In this document: piece after piece, positions 608-14,156 of the stretch
How positions within the stretch are numbered: the stretch's first letter is position 1
How the letters are laid out: every line of letters starts with the position of its first letter
DNA from: Thermoplasmata archaeon
Lineage (GTDB): Archaea; Thermoplasmatota; Thermoplasmata; Thermoplasmatales; Thermoplasmataceae
DNA length: 64,000 nucleotides
Reading direction: 5' to 3'
Assembly (NCBI GenBank): GCA_021802055.1
Contig: JAKAAY010000001.1
Span: 1-64,000, forward strand
The notes under the pieces: model-generated
Databases searched by the model: none
Seen by the model: only the letters and a program-made list of their open reading frames with translations
Told to the model about the DNA's origin: nothing
Translations under genes and position numbers: made by a program

Positions 608-1747
608 ATGGATCCTAAGTCATTGCTGGATGAAGCGTACGCCCACGTACAGAGTGCAGAAGCCTGCAGTCAAAGCGGGGATTTTCATGGAGCTTACGTT
701 GAATACACCAAGGCTGCGAATCTTCTCATGGAACTTGCAGGTCAAAGCGCCGGAGAAATAAAAGTTTCCAGGTTGGAGAAAGTGGAGCAACTTGTTGCGC
801 TGGCAGAAAGGATGAAGTATAAATCAAAGGAGCAGAGATTGCAGGATTCACGGAAGCGGGTAAACGCAAATGAGAGAAATATACCCGATTCTCCAAGTAC
901 CTTTGAGGAACTCGGCGTAACAGTTTCGGAAAAGTCTGATGTATCATTCAATGAAGTGGCTGGCCTTGATGACGTGAAGGAGGAGATTTATAACAAGGTG
1001 ATCCTGCCCATGAAGGAAAGGAACCTTGCTAAGGAATACAGGATTTCCCCGGGCGGAGGAATATTGTTGTTCGGCCCACCAGGCTCGGGCAAGACACATG
1101 TTGCCAGAGCTATATCACACGAAGTGAGTGCAAAGTTTGTCATCATCAATCCCTCTGCACTCCTGAGCCAGTGGTTTGGAATGTTTGAAAAGCGCATATC
1201 TCAGCTGTTCGAGATCGCTCGTTCAAATTCTCCTGTGGTTCTGTTCTTTGATGAGATAGATGCTATTGCCCCAAGGCGTAGTAAGACAAATTCATCGGTG
1301 ATGAAAAGGGCAGTTCCGCAACTCCTGGCCGAGATGGATGGTTTTCGAAGGGATACAGGCAGCATGGTCCTCGTCATAGGAGCGACAAATAATCCCTGGG
1401 ATATTGACGAAGCACTCCTGCGCCCTGGCAGATTTGACGAAAAAATTTATGTCAGGCTGCCAGAGGAGAGCGCTAGAAGGAGGATGTTTGAACTTTCCCT
1501 GAGCGGCAGGAAGCTATCGCCTGACATGGATTACGGCAGACTTGCTTCCATATCTGACGGATTCAGCGGCGCTGAAATAGACTATATTTGCAGAAAAGTC
1601 GCCGAAGAAGTGTTCAGGCAATCTGTGGAGACGGGGGTAGCCAGAGATATAGACGAAGCAAAAGTGGAGGAGATCATTGGCAGAACCAGGAAGACAGTCA
1701 ATGATAGTATGCTGAAGAGATATGATGAGTTCATCAAGAGTGGTTAA
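608..1747 (+). CDS. MIT-like domain plus AAA ATPase, Vps4/CdvC-like (paralogue 1)
   Basis: This 379-residue ATPase has an N-terminal helical hairpin (about 1-75) with the pattern of MIT domains, which bind ESCRT-III tails, followed by one AAA module. Walker A is GPPGSGKT at 156-163, Walker B ends in D215-E216, and the sensor region ATNNPW and RPGRFD follow. The C-terminus (DSMLKRYDEF) resembles the closing helix of Vps4/CdvC/katanin proteins. Pore loop 1 is QWFGMFEK, where Vps4 has KWxGESEK. The family unfolds or extracts subunits from polymers by threading. The start at 608 is chosen because a TATA box lies at 571-581 and because the MIT-like sequence begins there. The ESCRT-type role is inferred from the domain order and from the small helical genes nearby. 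A generic proteasome-type AAA remains possible. Confidence 0.75.
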   Translation: MDPKSLLDEAYAHVQSAEACSQSGDFHGAYVEYTKAANLLMELAGQSAGEIKVSRLEKVEQLVALAERMKYKSKEQRLQDSRKRVNANERNIPDSPSTFEELGVTVSEKSDVSFNEVAGLDDVKEEIYNKVILPMKERNLAKEYRISPGGGILLFGPPGSGKTHVARAISHEVSAKFVIINPSALLSQWFGMFEKRISQLFEIARSNSPVVLFFDEIDAIAPRRSKTNSSVMKRAVPQLLAEMDGFRRDTGSMVLVIGATNNPWDIDEALLRPGRFDEKIYVRLPEESARRRMFELSLSGRKLSPDMDYGRLASISDGFSGAEIDYICRKVAEEVFRQSVETGVARDIDEAKVEEIIGRTRKTVNDSMLKRYDEFIKSG

Positions 1748-1908
1748 AATTTGCTGTGCTTTGACCATTATGACATCAAGGTGAACGGTGTGGTGAAAGG
1801 AACGGCGTCCACCGGTTCATGTTGTGGTAAGTCGGATTATGACGCAAAAGGTATCGTTGCGCTTCACGCTGGAAACTAATATATATGTAAGTGAAAGTAA
1901 CCTCCTGT

Positions 1909-2229
1909 ATGTCTTCACTGTCATTTCTAAGCAGCCCTGAAGTCGAACTGGTTCTGATCCTGGTCGATGGCATACTCTTTGGGCTTGGCCTCAAGAAGGC
2001 TTCATGGGCCCTCATATTCATTGTTCTTGCATTTCTGCTGGCCGAGTACATCAATGAGTCCAGCGTCCCGAACCTCACTCTTAGCTCATTTGAAACCATA
2101 CTTTACGATCATTTCTTAAATATCATCAACAGCATAGGGAGCCTGCTTCACATAGGAGGGATCGGGGGGTTAAGCCTCTTTCTTGTAGTATTCATAGTGG
2201 GACTTGCCATTGGTTACCTGAAGGGCTGA
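1909..2229 (+). CDS. Small membrane protein of unknown function
   Basis: A 106-residue protein with a hydrophobic segment at about 10-45 and a glycine-rich one at the C-terminus (about 82-104, ending AIGYLKG), so two or three membrane passes. The start ATG 1909 is preferred over GTG 1891 because a TATA-like run (1878-1886) lies about 27 bases upstream, which fits a leaderless transcript; no Shine-Dalgarno is present. It sits between two Vps4-like ATPase genes and converges on the second. It might be the membrane partner of the system, but that is only positional inference. I do not recognise the family. Confidence 0.6.
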   Translation: MSSLSFLSSPEVELVLILVDGILFGLGLKKASWALIFIVLAFLLAEYINESSVPNLTLSSFETILYDHFLNIINSIGSLLHIGGIGGLSLFLVVFIVGLAIGYLKG

Positions 2230-2282
2230 TTTCCGCGCTCATGTGCCGCGGGCTAAATGCAGCCCGATAACATGCCTAGTGG

Positions 2283-3392
2283 CTATTGAGATGGAACGGA
2301 GCCCCTCAGTTTCCCGTATTGCACATACCTTTCCATAAGACCGGATGATACCGAGGGCTTTATGGTCTTGAGTGAGTCCATTAGTTCCGCCGTGGTGATC
2401 CGCGATTTTTCATCACCATTCACAGCCTTGAGAAATGCATTCTGGGCAGAATACCTGCATATATATTCAACATCAGCTGCACTGTAACCCTCCGTAGAGG
2501 TGGCTATCTGTCCATAATCAATTTCTCCCTTCCTGCTCACTGCCTCCATCTGATGCCGGATTATGGTTTCTCTCGCCGCCATGTCAGGAGGTGGTATGTA
2601 TACCATTCGGTCAAATCGCCCCGGTCTTGTAACTGCAGGGTCCAGAACCCACGGCACATTGGTTGCGCCCAGAATTAGCAGTTCACTGCTGCCATTGGAC
2701 TGAAATCCCCCGATCTCGTTGAGGAATTGAGATACGCCACGTCTGGACGCTTCACTGGAACGCTCATCCCTGACAGGGAACAGGCTCTCAATCTCATCGA
2801 AAAACAATATACACGGAGTAAGTCCCCTGGCTGCAGTAAACAGGGAATTGATATTCTTCTCAAAACTTCCAAACCACTTGCTGTACAGGGTCGATGGATT
2901 GACATAAATGAAATTCATGGAAGTTTCCCCAGCAAGAGCCTTCGCCAGGAAAGTTTTTCCATTTCCAGGCGGACCGTAGAATAACACCCCGCCACCCACG
3001 AACACGTTGAAATCCTTGGCAAGTTCCGGAAATCTAAGGGGATAGATCACCTTGGTGAAGAGCTCGCGCTTTACATCCTCAAGGCCAGCGACATCCTTGA
3101 ATTTTACCTGGTGGCTTGAAATTACGCTGAGTCCCAGTTCTTCTATGGTCTTTAAAGCACCCTCATCAAGCCCTGTGGACTGAGGGGTGTGGCCCTCCAG
3201 GCCTGTTATCACGCTCTGGAGAGATGCCATTCTTCTCCTGATCTTCTCCTTTTCAACCGCATCAGCCCTTGCGAAGTCACGTTGCAGGATCTCTATAGCC
3301 TTTCTGTATAGTTCAACGGCCTGCTTCTTGTTCCCAGAGGATTCAGTTTCCAGACCTTTCTCAAGGAGGTTACGCATCATTTCATTATTCAA
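2283..3392 (-). CDS. MIT-like domain plus AAA ATPase, Vps4/CdvC-like (paralogue 2)
   Basis: This 369-residue ATPase has an N-terminal MIT-like hairpin (about 5-65, with AVELYRKAIEIL typical of MIT helix 2). Its AAA module has Walker A GPPGNGKT at 140-147, Walker B LFFDE at 196-200, ATNVPW and RPGRF. The C-terminal IKPSVSSGLMERYVQY matches the end of Vps4/CdvC. Pore loop 1 is SKWFGSFEK, close to paralogue 1 and unlike paralogue 3. The reading frame begins at TTG 3392; ATG 3380, five codons in, is an equally good start. It is transcribed toward the small membrane protein gene. The likely substrate is an ESCRT-III-like polymer, inferred from the four helical genes 7-11 kb away. Confidence 0.75.
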   Translation of the reverse strand: MNNEMMRNLLEKGLETESSGNKKQAVELYRKAIEILQRDFARADAVEKEKIRRRMASLQSVITGLEGHTPQSTGLDEGALKTIEELGLSVISSHQVKFKDVAGLEDVKRELFTKVIYPLRFPELAKDFNVFVGGGVLFYGPPGNGKTFLAKALAGETSMNFIYVNPSTLYSKWFGSFEKNINSLFTAARGLTPCILFFDEIESLFPVRDERSSEASRRGVSQFLNEIGGFQSNGSSELLILGATNVPWVLDPAVTRPGRFDRMVYIPPPDMAARETIIRHQMEAVSRKGEIDYGQIATSTEGYSAADVEYICRYSAQNAFLKAVNGDEKSRITTAELMDSLKTIKPSVSSGLMERYVQYGKLRGSVPSQ

Positions 3393-3773
3393 TTTAACAA
3401 CATCTCCGGAAATTCTGTCAAGCCCAGAGCATGAAACCTTAAAGTAAGGTCATTACTGAACGTTCCATCATCAAGTCCTAAGTTTGATCCATTAATTGCG
3501 GTTTTTTTGAACATCGACAGTAATTGGAACCACTACGGTTTTATTAACCCTTTTGACCACTGAAGTTTAAAGTCTATTTCTGCCATAGGCAATTCATCTG
3601 CTTGGTGAATAATGAGAACCTATCTGCCCAGAACACCATAAATCACATCCACTTCAGCTTATCCTAGTGCAGGACTGAAGGCATCCCTGAATTGTACTTA
3701 CATTCCCGGTTGATGCCGGAAATATTTTAATTCTACACGAAAGAGATTTAAAGAGACACCATATATAACTCGC
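3393..3773. promoter_or_regulatory. Divergent intergenic region between ATPase 2 and the GTPase operon
   Basis: No gene is supported in these 381 bases. The right end holds a clear plus-strand promoter: TTTAAA at about 3747-3753, some 22-27 bases before ATG 3774. The left end must hold the promoter for the minus-strand ATPase. The two operons therefore diverge from here and could be co-regulated. A T run lies at about 3500-3507. Confidence 0.5.
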
Positions 3774-5648
3774 ATGGGCGAGGAGACCGAATGCGTTTCG
3801 CTTCTCAGAAGGTCATATCAGGAGTCGGCCAGAAACTTTACTGAACTGACCAAGATGAACCTTTTGGAAAAGAAGAGAGTCACAAGGGACCTGGATCTTC
3901 TTTACGCAAACGTGGAGAAGAGTTGTTCCGAGGGTCTTTCGACCAAGGATCTTTCTAGGGCGCTTTCTAACCTAAGGCTCGCACAGTTAAGAACTGCTCT
4001 GTCCATCAGGAATGATCCGGCCGCTAGAGGAATAAATGATCCTGATCTGAATAAAGCCTTAGATCGTTTCACAGCCGATGAATATGCAATGGTGGAAAAG
4101 CTGGAGCGCTTTTCCAACATAGATTCCCTGAACAGCCAGTCAATAACTACTCTGCTGGTTAACAAGGATGATCAAATATATCGACTAATAAAGGAGTGGT
4201 ATGAGGATAATATGGAGGATTTTCTGGGCGCCATCGATCTGCTTTCTGGGCGCAATGTCAGGGGTGAGGTGGCTTCAGCACTGGAAGAACGATACAGAAA
4301 CAGGTTCCAGAAACTTGTTGAGGGCATTGTGGACTACATCCAGCAGGACCCTGGCCAGATAAGAAAACTGTTCATCAACTATGAAAACTCCATGAAGAAC
4401 GCACTGCGGATAGAGTCTAAAAGGCTCGAAGCCAGGAAGAAGATCGTAGACCTGGTTTCAAGTGAAGAGTTTGAGGATGCCCATGATAGGGCTTCTTCCA
4501 TCATTATGCTGGGAAAGGCGAAGAATATTGATGCGCTTGCCAAATCTGATGCGGACGGAGTGATAAGGTCCCTCAAGCTCATAGAAGCGAAAATGAGGGA
4601 GGCCATAGCAGATTTGGAGGATGAAAGGGGAAAGCTGGAGAACGATCCGGAGATGAAAATCAACCCGGTTCTCAAGGAAATAGAGAAAAACAGGCTTGTG
4701 GAACTCGTAGAAGAGGCGAGCATCAAGAGAGAGACCATAGTTGGTGACATCGAGCAGCTGGAGAACCTGAAATCGCTCGCCATAATGAGCAGCAGCGGGG
4801 CGCATAAATCATATGGATCCACTTATTCATGCACATATGATGAGGTTTCACTCAGGAAACACCTGTTCTTTGAGTCAACCACAAATTTTCTACGCAACGG
4901 CGATAACGTCCCGTTATATGTGGCAAGATATAGATATAGCGGGAATATCAGGAATAAGGTTCTTGTAAACGCGATGGAACGCCTCTCTGATGAACCGCTC
5001 TTTTCAGACAGGGGGAGGGAAATTTCAAAGTCGTGGTCGACGGAGTTCATACTGAGAAAGTTCATGTCGGATGTCAGGGTTGGCCTGAATCTCACGTACA
5101 TTGCACATGACGCCCTGTTTTTAGGCGGGAAGGATTCTAAAGGGTCTGGAATCGATGAGACACCCTGCGATGTGGAGGATTTTACAGAGGTATACAGTTC
5201 TCTGGTGCAGTATACCAGAGACAGGGACTGCTATTTCATCAGCATTATAGGATCTCCCAATGGATACTCGAAGGATCTCATTGATATGGTGACCAGACAG
5301 GACGGAAAAGGGCTTTCCGGTACAAACGTCCTGATTTTGCTCAGGGACATGAAGTCCGGCGAAGTTTTCTACAATGCTTCCGATCCCTGCGGAAAGTATC
5401 TCGGATCGCTTCTCTCGTCAGGAAAGGACCTGGAAACCGTAAACTATGAGACAGTCAGAAATGAGACTCTCTCTGAGAGCGGAGTGACTGGAGTGGCGCG
5501 GATGAAGACCATCTGCAAGCTGAGCTCCCTCAGTGAGGCTGAAGTAACAAGGGCCTGGAAGAGGCTTGAGAGTGAGCGTACCGGTAAGATTGACCAGATC
5601 AACGGAGAGTTTGTATTCAGGCTGGCAGCCAAGAATGGAGGCACTTGA
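3774..5648 (+). CDS. 624-residue helical plus alpha/beta protein, first gene of GTPase operon, family unknown
   Basis: I do not recognise this protein. Residues 1 to about 335 are almost entirely charged helix with coiled-coil stretches. Residues about 350-545 look like a mixed alpha/beta domain (strands such as CYFISIIG and NVLILLRD). The last 60 residues (GVARMKTICKLSSLSE onward) look like a winged-helix domain. No signal peptide or membrane segment is seen. ATG 3774 follows a TATA box by about 25 bases, so the mRNA is probably leaderless. The stop is 4 bases before the start of the membrane GTPase, whose Shine-Dalgarno lies inside this gene's end, so the two are coupled. A regulatory or scaffold role for the GTPase is inferred from position only. 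Confidence 0.7.
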   Translation: MGEETECVSLLRRSYQESARNFTELTKMNLLEKKRVTRDLDLLYANVEKSCSEGLSTKDLSRALSNLRLAQLRTALSIRNDPAARGINDPDLNKALDRFTADEYAMVEKLERFSNIDSLNSQSITTLLVNKDDQIYRLIKEWYEDNMEDFLGAIDLLSGRNVRGEVASALEERYRNRFQKLVEGIVDYIQQDPGQIRKLFINYENSMKNALRIESKRLEARKKIVDLVSSEEFEDAHDRASSIIMLGKAKNIDALAKSDADGVIRSLKLIEAKMREAIADLEDERGKLENDPEMKINPVLKEIEKNRLVELVEEASIKRETIVGDIEQLENLKSLAIMSSSGAHKSYGSTYSCTYDEVSLRKHLFFESTTNFLRNGDNVPLYVARYRYSGNIRNKVLVNAMERLSDEPLFSDRGREISKSWSTEFILRKFMSDVRVGLNLTYIAHDALFLGGKDSKGSGIDETPCDVEDFTEVYSSLVQYTRDRDCYFISIIGSPNGYSKDLIDMVTRQDGKGLSGTNVLILLRDMKSGEVFYNASDPCGKYLGSLLSSGKDLETVNYETVRNETLSESGVTGVARMKTICKLSSLSEAEVTRAWKRLESERTGKIDQINGEFVFRLAAKNGGT

Positions 5649-5652
5649 TATT

Positions 5653-7287
5653 ATGATAGGATCTTCAGGCATAACGTTTTTTCCAATTATAAATGTCATC
5701 TCAACCTTCTTTACCCTCATACTGATCTTGGTTGTCTTTCTATGGTTTCTGGCAAGACAAAAACTCATTGTGACCGCACACGGGGTGCTCATAGAGTCCA
5801 GAGACGACTTTTTTTATAAAGTTGTCAGGGGAAGCGCTTATTCTGGAATTTTTCTGGCCCTTTCACTCATTCCGCTGTTCGGATTCATTTTTCTTTTCAC
5901 TTCCGCAGGTTTTGTTTCGAGTTACTCCAAAAGGGTTGGGATTATATCACATAAGCTCAAGACGGGACCGAATTCATATGTCTTTGTGGCTGCCATAGCC
6001 GGGTTTGTGGAGATGATAGCGGGTTTTGCTGATTTCCAACCGTTTTACACTGATCCCGTAATCGGCACACTTGTTGACCTGGCTCTGCCTTTCTTCATTG
6101 CAGCTGCAGCTGCTGCCATTCTTCCCTTCGCGGGGAGATATATGGGGTACTTCACTGTGCTTGTCGCCATTGTACTTATGCTGTTTAATCTACAGGGTGC
6201 AACCACAGTGAGTGATGTTGTCACTGTGATGACGTTTTCATTGCTGTTCCTGCTCGTTGCAGGCATTTTGTACAGCGAGAGACAGAGCTACATCCGCAAG
6301 GGTGGGATGTCAAAGGACATATACGGAACCAAGAAGTTCAACCCGGCTATCCCTCCAGGCACTGCAACTGCAGGTGCACAGCAGCAGGGCACCGTGCCAC
6401 CCAGAAATGTAGATACTGCGTCCGCAACGGCATACCAGCAGACCGTTACCATGCAGAGCCCGTCAATGGGACCCCCGGTGCCAATGACGTCCGCTGACCG
6501 CAAGCTGGCAGCCAGGGATCTCATAGCCATGGTTGGCCCCCCGCTCAGCGGTAAGACCACGTTTCTGGCATATTTCTTCCAGTTCATTGCTGAGATTGAG
6601 ACAAAGACTGGGGTCTCCATAGAGGTGAATCCGGGTATAGAACTCATGGAACAATACCTGAAGAGGATCATATCGGAACACAAGTTTCCGGAGCTTACCG
6701 GAATGGATAAGGTAGGCGAGGTTGTTTTCACCTTTACAAGGAAAAAGAAGATCGGAAAGAGCAGCACGCACCTAAGGGTGAGTGACATTGCTGGGGAGAG
6801 ATTCAGCCAGCTGCAGGGGGCAAAGGAAAGCGTCAGAAGGCAACTCACCAATACAAGGTTTGAGTATCTCCTGAGGGCGAGAGGATACCTCATAATGGTC
6901 GACTGTTCCTCTTACACAGAATGGGCAACAAAGGATCTGGAGTACTGGAGGATACTGAACTCCCTGCTTTCCGCGAGACTGGAAAAAGAACCTCCGAGAA
7001 TAGCCTTCGTTTTCACAAAAACAGACACACTGCCATCCGCCGTTGCATCATACGACGCAATACAGCTCCTGGAAATACTGAAGAACACAAACCTTTATAT
7101 CAAGAAATATGTGAGAAACCCTTCTGCATTCAAGATTTTCATCAAGACAGAGCGATCCTCTGACGGCCAGATTGTGCCAAAACTGGATGTGGATGTTGGA
7201 GGGAGGCTCGACATCAAATATGATTCTGAGTACAATGACGGATTTCTGTACGTGGCCCAGTGGATTGCTGACGCTGGAGGACTATGA
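5653..7287 (+). CDS. Polytopic membrane protein with C-terminal GTPase domain
   Basis: A 544-residue protein. About six or seven hydrophobic helices fill residues 5-215. A Pro/Ala/Gln-rich linker follows, then a P-loop GTPase domain from about 285. G1 is GPPLSGKTT (295-303), G3 is DIAGERF (D378) and G4 is TKTD (455-458), so GTP rather than ATP specificity is expected. The layout resembles the GTPases encoded beside GAP1-N proteins in bacterial predicted conflict systems (DO-GTPase group). ATG 5653 is chosen because GGAGG at 5637-5641 precedes it; ATG 5635 is possible. The stop overlaps the next start in ATGA. The inferred role is nucleotide-switched recruitment of the neighbouring proteins to the membrane. 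Confidence 0.75.
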   Translation: MIGSSGITFFPIINVISTFFTLILILVVFLWFLARQKLIVTAHGVLIESRDDFFYKVVRGSAYSGIFLALSLIPLFGFIFLFTSAGFVSSYSKRVGIISHKLKTGPNSYVFVAAIAGFVEMIAGFADFQPFYTDPVIGTLVDLALPFFIAAAAAAILPFAGRYMGYFTVLVAIVLMLFNLQGATTVSDVVTVMTFSLLFLLVAGILYSERQSYIRKGGMSKDIYGTKKFNPAIPPGTATAGAQQQGTVPPRNVDTASATAYQQTVTMQSPSMGPPVPMTSADRKLAARDLIAMVGPPLSGKTTFLAYFFQFIAEIETKTGVSIEVNPGIELMEQYLKRIISEHKFPELTGMDKVGEVVFTFTRKKKIGKSSTHLRVSDIAGERFSQLQGAKESVRRQLTNTRFEYLLRARGYLIMVDCSSYTEWATKDLEYWRILNSLLSARLEKEPPRIAFVFTKTDTLPSAVASYDAIQLLEILKNTNLYIKKYVRNPSAFKIFIKTERSSDGQIVPKLDVDVGGRLDIKYDSEYNDGFLYVAQWIADAGGL

Positions 7288-8960
7288 GCAATCAGGTTTC
7301 TGCGGAGCAGCTAATTTTCGGGTGGGTTGACAGAGGCAGTTCCAGGGGGTACCAGCTCGTTACCAAATCGAATGGAACCAGGCAGGATGATCTGGACTAT
7401 CTGCAGAAACACAGCCTTCCCTCATCCCTTGACAATCTCACTTTCAGGGAATGCAGGAGGTTGTTTTCGCTCCCCAGCGGAAATCTGGCCTTCAACTATG
7501 TAAAGGGTATAGGCAAGGACGCCTATGGAAGGGAAGGGGCCATTTACAGTCATTTCATAGTCATTTCCCCGCAGGACTTCAGGAGGCTCAACAAGAATTT
7601 CGAAATGGTCGACGCCCACCACCTGAAGGGGATCGCGTCTGTGAAGGACCTTCAGCGTTTCGTCTCTGGTGGAAATTCTGTCCCCCTCCCCGCAATATAC
7701 ATGGAGGCTGAAATAAGCCCACATAAAGGGCTTAACAGCCAGGCAGTTGACTCCCTGGTGTTTCCATTGCTGCAGCACCTTTACGACCGCAGAATCACGA
7801 TAATGTGCAGAATCTCCTCGTACTGGGGATCTCATTCGCTGATCTGGCAACTTGAAAGGATGTTTCCACCCGATCTCCTTGTGTCATATTCAACATATCA
7901 GCGAGACCCTGCATTGGACAGTTTCATAACCATAGGAGTGACGGATTTGCCCTTGGCGCTTCCTCCATATTCCTTCTACATTGATCTTGACTCGGATAAA
8001 CCGGATCTGCTATTCACCCCGGACGGTGTGGCCTGGAGTAATTCGTTTGCTATTCCTCCAGGCTCGATTCTTTACCAGTTATCAGCCTCTATTTCCAGGA
8101 ATCCTGAACTTTACTCCCTTACGGGGAATGTTACACCGGAATCCTATCTTAGGTCTGTTATGGGAACTTTCCTGAAGAGGGCGATCGCTTCCGGGGAGGA
8201 CATGGGCATGCTCATAGGGTCTGTATTCCTGGCAATGGAGGATGGCACGGTGCTCTCCAGGGATGAATTCTATGGGTTTATACGTGAATTCGCAGCCTCC
8301 AGTGTCAACAACAGAAACACGGTCCTTGATCTTTACATGAAATCCATAGATGAAGATCCAGACACCGCGTCCCAGTTCAGGAAAATTAAGGAAATATTCA
8401 ATATAGTCCTTTCCGCTGGAAATGATGAGGAATTCATCGAAAGGTTTGCCCGTGAGTTCTCCAGCAACAGGAAGCTCAACCGAAACAGCATAGCTTGTGA
8501 ATGGGTTGCCAGGCAATTGCTGAATGCCCGTTCAATGCAGCGTTTGAATTCCGCTCTTCTCAGGAGTTCCATATCAGTGTATGAGCAGTGGGTAAAACTT
8601 GCACACAAGGAACAACCTGGCGTTGAAAGTCTCTCCAAAACGCTGGCTATTCTCAGAACGGTCCCTGGAAGCCAGAAAGACGGCAGCAGGCTGATATATG
8701 AGGCCATACACAGCGCAATCAGGATGCAGTCCCCAGACATTCCGGCCTTTGCGGAGCTCCTGATCCATAATGCCTCCAGTATGGAGTTCGATGATTTCGT
8801 TGATGTCGGAATAGAGATGGCAAAGACCCTTGGGATGATCAATGCGCCTGGGAAAGAAGGACTTCTCGAGAACCTTCTTGATATGCTTCAGGAATGTTCT
8901 GGTGAGAGCCGTAAGGCGGATGCTTTTATCAGAAAGTTGAGAGGAGAGGTAGAAAAATGA
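7284..8960 (+). CDS. GAP1-N-like GTPase-associated protein
   Basis: A soluble protein of 558 residues. The first about 200 match the pattern I know for the GAP1-N domain: QLIFGWVDRG at 9-18, a middle stretch with SLPSG, then GREGAIYSHFIVI at 82-94. In bacteria such proteins are encoded next to membrane or soluble GTPases and are thought to be their effectors or adaptors. The rest (about 250-558) is helical and unassigned. It starts at ATG 7284 inside ATGA shared with the GTPase stop, with GGAGG just upstream, and it ends in another ATGA with the next gene, so translation of the three is coupled. The domain call is from memory of the family pattern; a profile search is needed to confirm it. 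Confidence 0.7.
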   Translation: MSNQVSAEQLIFGWVDRGSSRGYQLVTKSNGTRQDDLDYLQKHSLPSSLDNLTFRECRRLFSLPSGNLAFNYVKGIGKDAYGREGAIYSHFIVISPQDFRRLNKNFEMVDAHHLKGIASVKDLQRFVSGGNSVPLPAIYMEAEISPHKGLNSQAVDSLVFPLLQHLYDRRITIMCRISSYWGSHSLIWQLERMFPPDLLVSYSTYQRDPALDSFITIGVTDLPLALPPYSFYIDLDSDKPDLLFTPDGVAWSNSFAIPPGSILYQLSASISRNPELYSLTGNVTPESYLRSVMGTFLKRAIASGEDMGMLIGSVFLAMEDGTVLSRDEFYGFIREFAASSVNNRNTVLDLYMKSIDEDPDTASQFRKIKEIFNIVLSAGNDEEFIERFAREFSSNRKLNRNSIACEWVARQLLNARSMQRLNSALLRSSISVYEQWVKLAHKEQPGVESLSKTLAILRTVPGSQKDGSRLIYEAIHSAIRMQSPDIPAFAELLIHNASSMEFDDFVDVGIEMAKTLGMINAPGKEGLLENLLDMLQECSGESRKADAFIRKLRGEVEK

Positions 8961-10408
8961 GAAGCAAAAATGAGAAGAATAAGGAGGCGGCAAAAACTTC
9001 CGCCGGTGCATTTGACGAGGACTTGGACAGATTCAGCCTTTATCTCATGAGACTGCTGAAGGACCTTGCAAGGGATAAGAAAGTCCCCCGCATCAGAAAG
9101 GAGACCCTGAGGTTCAACATGCCTCTCATCGACTCCATCCTGTCGGGCAGGCTGGACAGGCAACAGTCCATGCAGAGCGCTGTGACTATCATCAGTTCCA
9201 TTCTCTCGGCTGACAGGCTGGAAGCAGAGGACAGGGATTATCTTGTAGCTGCCCAGAGCAAGATGAAAGCAGATCTGAGAGAGATGAACAGGGACAAGCC
9301 GCTTGAGCAGATCACGGCCCTGGTTATGTCTGATTCCCCGGAAGATGTTAAGCGTGGGTTGATGAGACTCGGCGATGAGGTTAAGAACGGGTACAGGGAC
9401 GGAATGGACGGCATGGTTGAAAAGGCGACTAACGCACTGATGGACTCTGATCCAGAGATGGCCATGCTTGCCTCGAAGTTCATCTATTATGCTTCCTCCT
9501 TCAGGAGCAGCGTGTTCCAGTACCACAGGGATGGCATAATGAAGGCCATGAAGAGTCAATCCGCCAGCGTCAGGGCCAGTGTCGTGATGGCGTGTGCCGC
9601 TGCCAGAGACATGACTTCGCTGGATTCCCTCGCCTCCCTGGCTTCCGATCACAGCACTGCAGATATCGGGGCCCTTGGACTTTCCGATTACAAGATAAAG
9701 TTTCCTCATGAGGGGCCTAGGGCCAGGGTCTCTGACGTTGTCCGGGACGCTGTTTATGAGATCATTGAAGCGAGGAACGATAACTCACTCTATATACGGA
9801 AGAGCATCAAAACCTCAGTGAATGAGAACATGGTTACAGGGAAGGAGTATTCCCTGGACATGGAGATAACCCCTCTGGTTGACCTGAAGGGGCTGGAGAT
9901 AGACCTTACGGGAATGCTGGGGGAGTTCGACGTCGTGGGCAACCGTGTGATAGGTTTTGATCTGCTGAAAGCCGGGGAAATGAAATTTGTCGACCCCATA
10001 AAGATCATACCGGAAACGCCAGGACACCGCAAGGGGAAAATCAGGTGCAAGACCTCTAACGGTTGGGAGGCCGTCCTTGAGATTGAGGCTGTGGTGAGCG
10101 AACCAATCAAGAATAACGTGAAATCTGACAACCAGTCTGATCAGCCCCATGTTTCAGGCGTTATCATTGCCGGTCAGTCTTCCCCCATCGACCTGCTGGG
10201 CAAGGATATACAGTCGATGGAGATTACAAGGGCCGTGAATGCACTGGATGAACTCATACGGTTTGCAGGGGATGACACGGGTCTAAAGAACAGGATTGAA
10301 TCGCTCAAACTGATGCTGACCTATAAGGGAACCACTATGATGACCAAGTCTGAGATGGACTCAGCTATGGAGCTTGTGGAGAACGTCAAGAGACGGATGT
10401 ACACCTGA
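8957..10408 (+). CDS. Helical-repeat protein with a beta domain, last gene of GTPase operon
   Basis: The protein has 483 residues and an unknown family. Residues about 20-265 are amphipathic helices in pairs, as in HEAT or ARM repeats. About 280-375 are predicted mainly beta (alternating hydrophobic pattern around EYSLDMEITPLVDLKG). The last 75 are helical. No membrane segment or enzyme motif is visible. It starts within ATGA shared with the GAP1-N gene, with GGAGAGG before it. Its stop codon directly abuts the stop of the convergent ESCRT-III-like gene at 10409. It is probably a scaffold or adaptor of the GTPase complex, by inference from the operon. Confidence 0.65.
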   Translation: MRSKNEKNKEAAKTSAGAFDEDLDRFSLYLMRLLKDLARDKKVPRIRKETLRFNMPLIDSILSGRLDRQQSMQSAVTIISSILSADRLEAEDRDYLVAAQSKMKADLREMNRDKPLEQITALVMSDSPEDVKRGLMRLGDEVKNGYRDGMDGMVEKATNALMDSDPEMAMLASKFIYYASSFRSSVFQYHRDGIMKAMKSQSASVRASVVMACAAARDMTSLDSLASLASDHSTADIGALGLSDYKIKFPHEGPRARVSDVVRDAVYEIIEARNDNSLYIRKSIKTSVNENMVTGKEYSLDMEITPLVDLKGLEIDLTGMLGEFDVVGNRVIGFDLLKAGEMKFVDPIKIIPETPGHRKGKIRCKTSNGWEAVLEIEAVVSEPIKNNVKSDNQSDQPHVSGVIIAGQSSPIDLLGKDIQSMEITRAVNALDELIRFAGDDTGLKNRIESLKLMLTYKGTTMMTKSEMDSAMELVENVKRRMYT

Positions 10409-11026
10409 TCAGGATTTCTGCTTCTCACCCGTTATTTTCTTGATCAGGTCGTCGATCTCCTTGTCACCCGCGGCTTCGGATGACTTCTGGGAAGATTCCA
10501 TTGCCTGAACAGATTGGCCCGTGACTTCCTTCACTATGTCCTCGGCTGAAACACCACCACGGGACGCAAATTCCTGGAGTGATTCGCCAAGTGTGCTGAA
10601 CTGTTCCTCCAGCCTGGTTTCTAGGTTTTCCGTGCTTTCGTTAATGGAGCGCAGGTTGTTCTCTATCTCCCTTGCCTGTTCATCGGTGAGCATGCGCTTG
10701 CCGAGGTCAGTGTGTGCCTCAGACAGGGTCCTGTTGATCTCCCTCTCATTGTACACAAATTCAAACGTGATTTCAAGGTTGTCAAGGTAAAGCGAAAAAC
10801 TCCTGAGGTAATCAATTGCGCTTTTGATCCTTTTGGCGTTCTGTGCTGCGTTGAGCACACCCCTGTTGTCCTTGATGGCGGCGGCGGACTTCAGGTTGTT
10901 TATTGCCTGGTTCAGAAGCTGCTGCTGCTTCTTCAGGTTTCTGTCCACCTGGGCCTTATATCCCCTGATCTTGCTTCTAGTCTCGAACCTCTTGTCATCT
11001 TCCGACTTTCGTAGCTTGATACTCAT
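10409..11026 (-). CDS. ESCRT-III/Snf7-like helical protein with C-terminal MIM-like tail
   Basis: A 205-residue protein. A basic N-terminus is followed by a long helical hairpin (about 20-95), then shorter acidic helices (about 98-150), a flexible stretch and a final short helix DDLIKKITGEK (192-202). Basic hairpin first, acidic helices second and a tail helix last is the layout of Snf7/CHMP and CdvB subunits, which form membrane-bending filaments. The tail matches the MIM1 pattern only in part (L194, K197, I198). It has its own promoter (11055-11067) and lies 127 bases after the previous gene of the cluster. Assignment rests on layout and neighbours, not on a recognised signature. Confidence 0.6.
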   Translation of the reverse strand: MSIKLRKSEDDKRFETRSKIRGYKAQVDRNLKKQQQLLNQAINNLKSAAAIKDNRGVLNAAQNAKRIKSAIDYLRSFSLYLDNLEITFEFVYNEREINRTLSEAHTDLGKRMLTDEQAREIENNLRSINESTENLETRLEEQFSTLGESLQEFASRGGVSAEDIVKEVTGQSVQAMESSQKSSEAAGDKEIDDLIKKITGEKQKS

Positions 11027-11054
11027 TTTACCGCAGTTGTAGCAACCGTTATTC

Positions 11055-11067
11055 CTTAATTAAATAT
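11055..11067 (-). promoter_or_regulatory. TATA-box promoter of the 10409-11026 gene
   Basis: On the minus strand the run ATATTTAATTAAG is centred about 35 bases before ATG 11026. Transcription would begin about 10 bases before the start codon. It separates this gene from the operon that ends at 11153. Confidence 0.45.
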
Positions 11068-11152
11068 TCCTCATGTTTACCTGACATGCCTGATACTGCC
11101 TGGGCTGAAAGCCTGCAGAAGGTCCGTTAGCACATATCAGTGCACGTTTTCA

Positions 11153-11731
11153 TCACTCTTTCTCGTCAGTCTCGCCAAGTTTGCGGAGCCTCTCCTTGAG
11201 TTTATCTTCCAGGTCGCTGAGGTCTTTCCCGGTCTTTGATGGATCTGATACCTGCGTCTTGCTGGTTTCCTGGTGTTCGGGAAATGTTGTTCCCACGTCC
11301 TCAAGAAAACCACTGAAGAGATCCCCGATTCGCTCGCTCTGGTTCTTCGCCTTTTCGAGCTCCCCCTCAACTGTGGACATCCACGAAGGTCTTATCTTGC
11401 TTCCAGAGAAAGTCCTGACAAACGTTTCCATGGCATCGGAAAAGCTCGACAGGACTGAGGACTGATCCTTCATCATTTCCATGTCGGATACAATGAGGAG
11501 AAACGACCTGATCTTCTGGGCCTCCGTCTTCAGGGAATTGGATTTCTCCTGGAAGACTTTGAAAAGCGGCTCGTTGTGTATCTGGGCTGCGTCAGCCGCT
11601 TTTTTGTCGTATGTTGCAGCAATGGCGTCACATTTGGAGGCGTATTGCTGAGCTTTGTTCTTGAGCATCTGTATGCGAATCCCTGACTCGGCTTCCGCTT
11701 CCTCCCTTGATCTCTTGTCAAAGAGCTTCAT
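11153..11731 (-). CDS. ESCRT-III-like helical protein with near-consensus MIM1 tail
   Basis: A 192-residue protein beginning MKLFDKR, similar to the short amphipathic start of CHMP proteins. Helices span about 10-45, 50-90 and 95-140, then comes a disordered linker (about 145-170). The last helix contains EDKLKERLRKLG at 175-186. This fits the eukaryotic MIM1 consensus (D/E)xxLxxRLxxL(K/R) at E175, L178, R181, L182 and L185; only the final K/R is Gly. MIM1 is the peptide that Vps4-type MIT domains bind, and an MIT-like ATPase is encoded in the same operon. The start overlaps the stop of the upstream gene (ATGA at 11731-11728). The ESCRT-III call is an inference, strengthened by this motif. 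Confidence 0.65.
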   Translation of the reverse strand: MKLFDKRSREEAEAESGIRIQMLKNKAQQYASKCDAIAATYDKKAADAAQIHNEPLFKVFQEKSNSLKTEAQKIRSFLLIVSDMEMMKDQSSVLSSFSDAMETFVRTFSGSKIRPSWMSTVEGELEKAKNQSERIGDLFSGFLEDVGTTFPEHQETSKTQVSDPSKTGKDLSDLEDKLKERLRKLGETDEKE

Positions 11732-12372
11732 GATAGTATCACCCCCTCATCGTCTTCCTCCTCTTCCTTGCGGTTTCCGTCTACTGCTTTAATCCCGGCT
11801 TCATTTGAAGCATGAGAAGCTTCGGAATAGCGTACCGAACCCGGTGATCTTCTAGCTTCAACATAGACCTCCAGAGTCTCCAGGGACCGCTTCATCCTGA
11901 GCTCAGATTCCATACTCTCCCTTGTGGACTCCTTGAACTGATCAAGATTTTTCTTCTTGAGGACCCTGTCAATGTTTTTCAGCAGCTTCTGGCCATTCAC
12001 CATTTCCTGCAGGGATACCAGAGTGGAAAGGAACCTGTACCTGAGCTGGAGTTCGTCCATGCCTTTCTTCTTTGCTTCTATCATATCCATTGCACTCTGG
12101 AGCTTGACCTTTGCCAGAGTGTCTTCCTGGCCGCTGTACCTTTTCGATTCGCCCTCCAGTCGCTCAATTTCATCCTTAGCCATTTCCAGCATTACGTAGG
12201 TGTCCTGCATGGATTTTCTCAGGATCCTGGCGCCCCGCTTCCCCAAGTACTTCTTGCTGCCGAACGACTTCCACATGGACATCAGTGTCTCTATCCATTC
12301 CGTCTTGAAGTCTGAGGACGGAGAATTTGCCATGAGCTTATCCATCACGCTACTACGTGAAATATTCCACAC
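11728..12372 (-). CDS. Coiled-coil protein of the ESCRT-like operon, family unknown
   Basis: This is a 214-residue, strongly charged, mostly helical protein. Helices at about 22-75 and 80-125 could form the long hairpin of an ESCRT-III subunit. The end (EEEEDDEGVILS) is acidic and probably disordered, with no MIM pattern that I can see. The frame starts at GTG 12372, 11 bases after the ATPase stop; ATG 12345 is an alternative and would remove nine residues. It is translationally coupled to the MIM1 protein downstream. Function is inferred only from operon position between the Vps4-like ATPase and an ESCRT-III-like protein. Confidence 0.6.
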   Translation of the reverse strand: MWNISRSSVMDKLMANSPSSDFKTEWIETLMSMWKSFGSKKYLGKRGARILRKSMQDTYVMLEMAKDEIERLEGESKRYSGQEDTLAKVKLQSAMDMIEAKKKGMDELQLRYRFLSTLVSLQEMVNGQKLLKNIDRVLKKKNLDQFKESTRESMESELRMKRSLETLEVYVEARRSPGSVRYSEASHASNEAGIKAVDGNRKEEEEDDEGVILS

Positions 12373-12383
12373 CCCCGGTGATT

Positions 12384-13568
12384 TCAGTTGCCTGCATATT
12401 GCTCCTTCCAGTCCTGATATCTTTCCAGCATGCCCCTGTCGGCAACAGGCTTTACCTTTTCAAGAGCCGCATCAAAGTCAGCCTGCGTGATCTTGCCCAC
12501 CTGATACTTCAGCTCTCCGGATCCGGGAGGTGTGACTGAATCACTCCTGTCAATGGCATCCCTGTTCGTTCTTCTCAGCATGTGCCATATTGCTTCCGAA
12601 CAGAGGAATGCAAGGTCCCTTCCTGAAAAATTCACTGTGGACTCGGAAAGCACGGACAGATCCAACCCGACCTCAAAGCCCTTATCGACCGTGTTTATCC
12701 TCAGGATCTTCTCCCTGGTCTTAGCATCCGGAAGGCCTACGTATATCTTCTTTTCGAACCTTGAGAGTATTGCTGTGTCCAGCTTCCACGGGACATTGGT
12801 GGCTGCAACGGTCATCACGAAATTGTCACCAGTGCCAAAGCCGTCAAGCTGGCTCAGGAATTGCTGTACAACGGAGGAGGAAGTTGAGTTCCCGTTGTCC
12901 CTGCTCAGAACCAGGTTCTCAACCTCGTCCAGGAATATGATGGAGGGCGATCTCGCTCTGGCCGTTTCGTAAAGGGCCCCCACAAGTCTTTCAGAGTCTC
13001 CCACGTATCTGGAAACAAGTTCTTTTCCATTAGCATTGAAAAAGGTGGCATCTATGTTTGCCGACATGGCCTTGGCAAGAGAGGTTTTACCTGTTCCGGG
13101 CGGTCCAAACAGCAGCATGTTCCTCAGTTTTGGCACCTTGACGTTAGCTGATGGTGTCGCCCGGGCAAAGAAGAATGCTTCCCTTATGAGTGCCTTTTCC
13201 TCATCGAGTCCCCCTATTTCCGACCATTTTGTGTCTGCAGTTGAGATCAGAGATTCAATCCTGGACCTGAACTCATTTTCCATCTTGTCTATGAGGCCGC
13301 TGTCGTTCTTTGTCTTCTGGGTTGACCGGGACATTCTCTCATTACTCCCGAGAGAAGCTTTTTTCTTCACCCATTCCTCCTTTATCTCGAGATATCTTTC
13401 CCTGTCGGATGCGTCCAGATCTGCCAGAAGCTTGAGTTCACCTATTATGGTGTCGCACAGGGCCGATGCCTTTTTCATATCACCGCCTGATTCAGCGTCT
13501 GATACTTTCTTAATATTTTCGCCTATGAGCTTTCTGAGGTTGTCGATGGTAAGGTAGTCTGCGCTCAA
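12384..13568 (-). CDS. MIT-like domain plus AAA ATPase, closest of the three to Vps4/CdvC
   Basis: A 394-residue ATPase with a helical MIT-like N-terminus (about 5-70), a linker, then an AAA domain introduced by KWSEIGGLDEEK. Walker A is GPPGTGKT at 155-162 and Walker B is IFLDE at 211-215. Pore loop 1 SRYVGDSERLV is close to the Vps4 KWxGESEKLV, and SRFEKKIYVGLP (269-280) corresponds to Vps4 RRFEKRIYIPLP. The C-terminal VKPVADRGMLERYQDW matches the terminal helix of Vps4. These are hallmarks of the ATPase that disassembles ESCRT-III filaments. It starts at TTG 13568, six bases after the stop of the upstream coiled-coil gene. No CdvA-type gene is nearby. Confidence 0.82.
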   Translation of the reverse strand: MSADYLTIDNLRKLIGENIKKVSDAESGGDMKKASALCDTIIGELKLLADLDASDRERYLEIKEEWVKKKASLGSNERMSRSTQKTKNDSGLIDKMENEFRSRIESLISTADTKWSEIGGLDEEKALIREAFFFARATPSANVKVPKLRNMLLFGPPGTGKTSLAKAMSANIDATFFNANGKELVSRYVGDSERLVGALYETARARSPSIIFLDEVENLVLSRDNGNSTSSSVVQQFLSQLDGFGTGDNFVMTVAATNVPWKLDTAILSRFEKKIYVGLPDAKTREKILRINTVDKGFEVGLDLSVLSESTVNFSGRDLAFLCSEAIWHMLRRTNRDAIDRSDSVTPPGSGELKYQVGKITQADFDAALEKVKPVADRGMLERYQDWKEQYAGN

Positions 13569-13574
13569 CAGGAT

Positions 13575-14156
13575 TCACTCTTCTTTTTCCTGGCTCTTTT
13601 CACTTTCTTCTGACTGGGTGCTCTTCTCCTTTGAACCGGGGAGCAGATTTTCCTTGTTCTTGTCCATTTCACTGAAGAGCTTCATGAACTTGTTTTCGCT
13701 CTCTGAGGTTGACTCCTCTTCTGTAGATTTTACGTCCGAAATCCCCTGAAGAAGTTCGCCTCTCTTCCTGTCATTAACCTTCTCCCTGGACCTGTTCTTG
13801 ATCATTATGTCCTTGATATCTTCAGGATTTGCGTTCATGATGATGTCGCTGCCGGCCTCCTTGGTCTGGGATTTGGCAAGTTTGACCTCCTCGATGATGT
13901 CTATGTTGTCCCTGTAAATTTTCATCCTCTTGTCCAGGTCCTTGATGCTCCTTTCAAGCCTGCTCAGTTCATGGGCGATGTCTGCTCTTCTTGTGCCTGA
14001 GGCACTTGCCCCTTCCTTGAACAGTTTGTCAAATTCAGCCTTCTTCCTGTCTCTTTCCTTGCCGAGGAGACTTACCTGTGTCTCTATCTGCACAATCCTC
14101 TCGTCCGCCTGCTCGGGGGAGAGGTCTGTCACATCCTTCTTACGGAAAAATTTCAT
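13575..14156 (-). CDS. Coiled-coil protein, first gene of ESCRT-like operon
   Basis: A 193-residue protein starting MKFFRKK, a short basic amphipathic start like that of CHMP2/3. Two antiparallel-looking helices follow (about 18-48 and 58-100), then an acidic, Ser/Glu-rich, probably disordered tail (about 130-193). This fits an ESCRT-III-like core, but no MIM motif is clear. ATG 14156 lies about 27 bases after a strong TATA box, so the operon mRNA is probably leaderless. The next gene, the Vps4-like ATPase, follows six bases after the stop. The family is not recognised with certainty. Confidence 0.6.
   Translation of the reverse strand: MKFFRKKDVTDLSPEQADERIVQIETQVSLLGKERDRKKAEFDKLFKEGASASGTRRADIAHELSRLERSIKDLDKRMKIYRDNIDIIEEVKLAKSQTKEAGSDIIMNANPEDIKDIMIKNRSREKVNDRKRGELLQGISDVKSTEEESTSESENKFMKLFSEMDKNKENLLPGSKEKSTQSEESEKSQEKEE

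Follow-up and report, generated by a model that had tools for sequence, protein, structure and literature searches.

A membrane DO-GTPase/GAP1-N2 operon paired with ESCRT-III and Vps4-type genes in the Thermoplasmataceae

Genes for ESCRT-III proteins and Vps4-type AAA ATPases are paired, in genomes of the archaeal family Thermoplasmataceae, with an operon for a membrane DO-GTPase and a GAP1-N2-type protein. We describe this pairing from a locus at positions 608 to 14156 of a 64,000-base window (bases 1-64000 of contig C10, which is 99,657 bp long and comes from a 1.48-Mb draft genome). The rpoB gene on the same contig clusters with those of the other two genomes of the genus; hence, the contig is part of this genome. 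Genes are labeled g1 to g12, c6, c7, and c34; the genus labels g1, g2, g3, g6, g64, g65, and g67 follow a separate naming. An earlier note on this DNA had proposed that the two halves of the locus act together at the membrane. Because both halves are found in the same genomes, we infer, with good support from adjacency and co-occurrence, that they do act jointly there and work as one machine. We further think it fairly likely that this is a GTPase-gated ESCRT-III/Vps4 machine that remodels membranes or forms vesicles, a reading in which we infer interaction, GTP gating, and membrane output.

The pairing was examined in an order-level set of 117 genomes, of which 77 make up the family subset. 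Homologues of the GTPase g5 occur in 18 of the 77 family genomes, and a class-wide search with the GTPase profile returned only family members plus two marginal matches. For every one of the 18 carriers, the retrieved loci show MIT-AAA genes, ESCRT-III genes, or both next to the GTPase, contig ends allowing, and the proximity of both halves is conserved in five genera. The g4 gene is present in the same 18 of the 117 order genomes as the GTPase and in none of the other 99. GTPase-type g8 (>250 bits) was detected in 16 genomes, all of them within the 18 carriers, and in 0/59 GTPase-negative genomes. Strong g9 matches (>150 bits) were likewise present in 16/18 carriers and in none of the 59 GTPase-negative genomes; the two carriers without one are genomes only ~71-72% complete.

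Could the two halves simply be unrelated operons that happen to be neighbors? They are convergent, separate transcription units in the window, as chance neighbors might be. However, in six relatives (G067, G155, G157, G158, G159, and G163) the genes c7-g12-g11-g10-g9, mostly with one more AAA gene behind them, occupy a separate genome region or contig and are nevertheless kept together with the GTPase. When unlinked genes share presence and absence, the evidence is stronger than that from neighborhood alone. Across all genomes, g9 and the GTPase are associated with a Fisher p of 1e-14, a value that ignores shared descent. Within the genera that contain both states (genera g1, g6, g65, and g67), g9 is present in 6 carriers and lacking in 11 non-carriers (Fisher p 8e-5). 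A few of these absences may be gaps, as incomplete drafts are among the non-carriers. In G181, moreover, a single same-strand run comprises g4, a g12-like gene, g11, c34 (g10-like), g9, the GTPase, GAP1, an Ig/TPR protein, g1, and g3, with g8 convergent to it. Homologues of the two operons that are never found together were the outcome that the earlier note had set against its proposal; the five-genus adjacency, the perfect co-occurrence of g4, and the unlinked ESCRT operon are the opposite. Chance neighborhood is thus refuted at the genomic level, and we give it next to no weight.

All open reading frames at 608-14156 are present and intact. The earlier note had described a coupled operon with a membrane GTPase and a GAP1-N-like protein, and the sequence bears this out: g4 and g5 overlap by 14 nt, and g5/g6 and g6/g7 by 4 nt each. 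g5 (5635..7287, +) encodes the predicted membrane DO-GTPase, with 5-6 N-terminal transmembrane segments followed by the G domain. It matches Pfam DO-GTPase2 (E = 3e-11) and DO-GTPase1 (E = 4e-9) above cut-off, and its orthologues match DO-GTPase1 in 16/16 and DO-GTPase2 in 15/16 cases. Conserved G-domain motifs include Walker A (GPPxSGKT), an NDxAGE-like Walker B (DxxGE) in which D384 is invariant and E388 nearly so, and TKxD. The next gene, g6 (7284..8960, +), encodes a GAP1-N2-type GTPase-associated protein. By itself it matches GAP1-N2 with an E value of 4.9e-4; 7/15 orthologues match (best, 2.3e-7), and the match rises above cut-off with frame neighbors. As to the GAP1-M and GAP1-C domains, GAP1-M was matched in one orthologue only, weakly (E = 0.004), and hhalign of g6 against bona fide GAP1 was not significant, so that neither domain is secured.

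On either side of this pair lie g4 (3774..5648, +) and g7 (8957..10408, +). The 624-aa g4 protein is modeled (AlphaFold2 [AF2] mean pLDDT, 81) as a long helical/coiled-coil region and an alpha/beta domain, with a winged helix at the C terminus; in Foldseek, the winged helix alone was matched, with weak E values and with ESCRT-II (3cuq) among many matches. The g7 model (mean pLDDT, 85) contains a HEAT-like alpha-solenoid that resembles alphaRep, one Ig-like beta-sandwich that resembles the Ig-like domains of TRAP, transglutaminase, and complement proteins, and a C-terminal helical domain. Neither protein gave a whole-protein Foldseek match. The slot of g7 in G181 is taken by a TPR protein that has a beta domain with a weak TRAP-beta-like match but no significant homology to g7.

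DO-GTPase-type proteins of other architecture were seen in other genomes. In operons of the Cuniculiplasma type, a second DO-GTPase-like protein of 798 aa with ~15+ transmembrane segments follows g7 (L037:4960-7356(-); also L038 and L039); as its G domain is without a clear NKxD, it is perhaps a pseudo-GTPase partner. At L049:9610-11328(-) (G178:C67), a 572-aa open reading frame carries a DO-GTPase domain (6e-7, above cut-off) fused to transcription factor B, which is complete (Zn ribbon, 7e-17; TFIIB repeats, 4e-22), with no ESCRT genes adjoining. A basal transcription factor would be an unusual fusion partner for a GTPase.

Three genes of the ESCRT half, g1 (608..1747, +; 379 aa), g3 (2283..3392, -; transcribed divergently from g4), and g11 (12384..13568, -), encode predicted Vps4-type AAA ATPases, with Pfam AAA E values of 6e-41, 6e-37, and 2e-36, respectively. 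They are the only strong single-domain Vps4-type matches of the genome, which has one two-domain Cdc48-like protein besides. The earlier note had called all three MIT-like; AAA was found in each, and an MIT domain is supported for g1 and g3 but was not detected in g11. Single-sequence Pfam MIT matches of g1 (1.2e-3) and g3 (3.9e-4) lie below the curated cut-off; MIT is matched by 12/20 relatives and Vps4_C by 14/20. Since the full AAA profile is dominated by Cdc48 in PDB searches, the MIT region was searched apart: the N-terminal profile aligns across full-length Vps4 and MITD1 MIT domains, and TPR helices match as well. The NCBIfam CdvC profile aligns end to end with g1 (1.6e-60, under the equivalog cut-off) and g3. 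g11 matches Pfam Vps4_C at 0.024, and its orthologues sit between g12 and g10 in relatives; an orthologue of g3 adjoins the GTPase operon in most loci. PADLOC gave the defense label IetA. We rejected this label as generic AAA similarity: NCBIfam IteA reaches 120 bits where its cut-off is 510, and the Cdc48 and CdvC profiles outscore it.

Of the four small coiled-coil genes described in the earlier note, two are assigned to ESCRT-III. g8 (10409..11026, -) is predicted to be an ESCRT-III (Snf7) protein: Pfam Snf7 was matched in 9/13 orthologues (best E, 4e-7), g8 is co-linear with CHMP3 (E = 0.017), and the hhalign probability to the ESCRT-III of minimal-system Thermoplasmata is 99.8%. g9 (11153..11731, -; C-terminal MIM1-like motif EDKLKERLRKL) is probably a second, divergent ESCRT-III protein. 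Its profile retrieves Thermoplasmata ESCRT-III of the published, minimal-system type (E = 1e-17 and weaker, 1e-10 to 1e-17) with an hhalign value of 94.6%, and returned nothing meaningful from PDB sequences. Judged by motif, both could engage MIT domains: the g9 tail, DLEDKLKERLRKL, matches the MIM1 consensus (D/E)xxLxxRLxxL, and the g8 tail carries a conserved, MIM-like DxLIxKI. The coiled-coil proteins g10 (11728..12372, -) and g12 (13575..14156, -) were rejected as ESCRT-III, being negative in hhalign, and are best described as conserved partners. Orthologues of g10 are present in the second-locus operons of relatives, and those of g12 stand there directly after c7 (hhalign, 93.7% to the counterpart in genus g67). 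Overall, the ESCRT-III/Vps4 and GAP1-N2 assignments hold at the level of sequence profiles.

The genes g12-g11-g10-g9 are tightly packed, with a 4-nt overlap of g10 and g9. The two clusters end at adjacent stops, as had been noticed: g7 and g8 converge and abut at 10408/10409, and the same zero-gap convergence recurs in a relative, L032 (5447/5448). One gene of the interval had been missed, c7 (1909..2229, +), which encodes a small multi-spanning membrane protein of ~107 aa with three transmembrane segments by TM scan. Across many genomes, homologues of c7 adjoin ESCRT loci of both the GTPase type and the minimal type, and they head the second-locus operon of relatives.

How does this set compare with known systems? 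The ESCRT system of Thermoplasmata has been described as minimal, consisting of Vps4, ESCRT-III, and an arCOG07400 barrel, and the only GTPases named in the same study are FtsZ/tubulin and the longin-regulated small GTPases of Asgard archaea (PMC10936438). Our locus resembles the minimal system in its homologous Vps4 and ESCRT-III proteins, in occurring in the same archaeal family, and in the c7-like membrane protein often found nearby. The minimal system is, however, without the GTPase, GAP1, g4, g7, and g9-g12. The c6 protein (~145 aa) is the putative arCOG07400, judged by its context and by several FtsZ-less genomes that carry it with no ESCRT-III detected. Its profile matches 24/77 genomes but just 1/18 GTPase carriers (G156); the other 17 carriers, the window genome among them, are without a match. 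G156 holds a minimal set (c6, Vps4, and ESCRT-III) together with the GTPase-linked set (L092, G156:C194; L044/L045), so the two can coexist, although they are otherwise nearly mutually exclusive.

The GTPase half has its closest counterparts in the GAP1-N2/DO-GTPase systems, predicted conflict systems whose partner themes are tubulin, HSP70/GrpE, and kinase/phosphatase (PMC7159879). Shared features are the coupling of a membrane DO-GTPase to a downstream GAP1-N2 gene and, in some loci (L037-L039), a second polytopic DO-GTPase. The Ig-like sandwich and solenoid protein g7 may stand in for their FNIII-repeat component, and the partner here is ESCRT-III/Vps4. A distant member of the Thermoplasmata (G264) carries the published-type order DO-GTPase2/GAP1-N2/GAP1-M/HSP70, without ESCRT (L115:8429-16963). 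In archaeal ESCRT systems with Meth_adaptin/Halo_adaptin, Ig-like appendage-type domains and proteins of coiled-coil/winged-helix type likewise accompany ESCRT-III and Vps4, but neither DO-GTPase nor GAP1 is described for them (PMC10936438), and the likeness of g4 and g7 is one of domain type. Some gammaproteobacterial PspA operons place an ESCRT-III superfamily member near a DO-GTPase, with a predicted role in membrane stress (PMC11237479); they are bacterial, and Vps4/MIT ATPases or GAP1-N2 are not mentioned. The Vps4 neighborhood survey of that study does not contain the ESCRT/DO-GTPase-GAP1 pairing. We found no report of the combination in open-access text, including papers on Cuniculiplasmataceae and Thermoplasmatales, supplementary tables not being covered.

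In the machine that we favor, g5 with its coupled g6, the adaptor-like g7, and g4 would form a GTP-controlled membrane platform. This platform would set the site and timing at which the ESCRT-III proteins g8 and g9, aided by g10 and g12, polymerize on the membrane. The Vps4-type ATPases g1, g3, and g11 would engage the MIM-like tails, and the polymers would be remodeled or recycled. The output in these wall-less acidophiles would be membrane deformation or scission, for vesicle budding, membrane repair, or sorting. Several points weigh against this reading: the ESCRT-III fold of g8 and g9 comes from profile matches, the GAP1 assignment of g6 leans mainly on the N domain, and fast divergence, together with a patchy distribution inside genera, is what a conflict system could show as well.

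Vesicle formation, division, and defense had all been left open by the earlier note. Vps4 and ESCRT-III work in the division of TACK archaea (PMC10936438), and the module is core in one genus; the GTPase might similarly position ESCRT-III for cytokinesis or final abscission. Relatives of CdvC/Vps4 and CdvB/ESCRT-III are indeed shared with the Cdv machinery. However, CdvA was not recognized in the locus, which has a putative GTPase platform. FtsZ is retained in 18/18 carriers, mostly in two copies, and the FtsZ-less genera g2, g3, and g64 lack the module, which argues that it is not the main divisome. Same-genus sister genomes also do without it. Division as the main role is therefore disfavored, and we consider it improbable.

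In a conflict or anti-virus system, the GTPase and GAP1 would be the sensor-switch, and ESCRT-III/Vps4 would be an effector or repair arm that seals or ruptures the membrane or blocks virus budding. Such a role stays in view through the DO-GTPase ancestry (for GTPase and GAP1 alike, the nearest relatives belong to predicted conflict systems; PMC7159879), patchiness, and fast evolution. Between Cuniculiplasma-type subclades, module identity is 33-42% where that of RpoB is ~81-85%, with GAP1 the fastest-diverging component and g3 and g8 the slowest. The window module nests in Cuniculiplasma-type diversity (support 0.99, concatenated tree) and the window RpoB does not, a mismatch that suggests block transfer or differential loss; G172 displays a stronger one, on a 19-kb contig that could be mis-binned. 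Against a conflict role, the module is present in 12/12 Cuniculiplasma-type genomes, occupies recurrent chromosomal positions within subclades, and in some relatives consists of two unlinked loci that are yet kept together. No component has a toxin, nuclease, peptidase, or pore domain in Pfam and PADLOC scans, and the PADLOC matches arise through generic AAA similarity only. Relatives of g8 were not found in viral contigs, and the GC content of the cluster (0.484) is near that of the rest (0.472). We regard a conflict system as rather unlikely, though less so than division. Recent acquisition was rejected on composition, which gives no sign of it, and a PHROGs search returned zero matches.

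A more tentative but possible idea is that GTP-driven control of membrane polymers is the general role of GAP1-N2/DO-GTPase modules, the polymer being tubulin in bacteria and ESCRT-III in these archaea. On that idea, no other prokaryotic ESCRT machine would before now have had a dedicated GTPase to gate it, and the likeness to Arf/Rab-controlled membrane trafficking would be convergent. In contrast to the published view that ESCRT in Thermoplasmata was reduced to a three-gene core, the set of Cuniculiplasma and its relatives would be among the more complex ones in archaea: its ESCRT-III proteins number two and its Vps4-like ATPases up to three, joined by adaptor-like proteins and a GTPase platform. 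The ESCRT membrane-cutting machinery is also used by human cells. The pairing joins two literatures, on membrane remodeling and on GTPase-centered conflict systems, and makes the role of GAP1-N2 GTPases and the GTP control of ESCRT outside eukaryotes testable. Cuniculiplasma has cultured members, so proteomics and localization are feasible.

Upstream of g1 only 607 bases remain to the contig start, and any earlier genes would lie outside the contig. A scan of named genomes with one degenerate pattern yielded four loci; one is from Cuniculiplasma sp. KMA_Bin18, and another is a DO-GTPase-like gene of Gemmata that had no GAP1 among the neighbors scanned. With KMA_Bin18 and Thermoplasmata bins as the relatives retrieved by name, we take the family to be the Thermoplasma/Cuniculiplasma group. 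In many relatives, g3 is preceded by a protein of ~275-285 aa, family unknown, that is absent from the window and exists in two divergent forms (L032:12113-12940(+) and L037:14178-15038(+)). In one Cuniculiplasma subclade (L032:2109-5447, L033, and L098), the AAA gene and g8 are separated by genes for an ABC-type ATPase, a likely permease, a membrane protein, and a small protein of winged-helix-like type.

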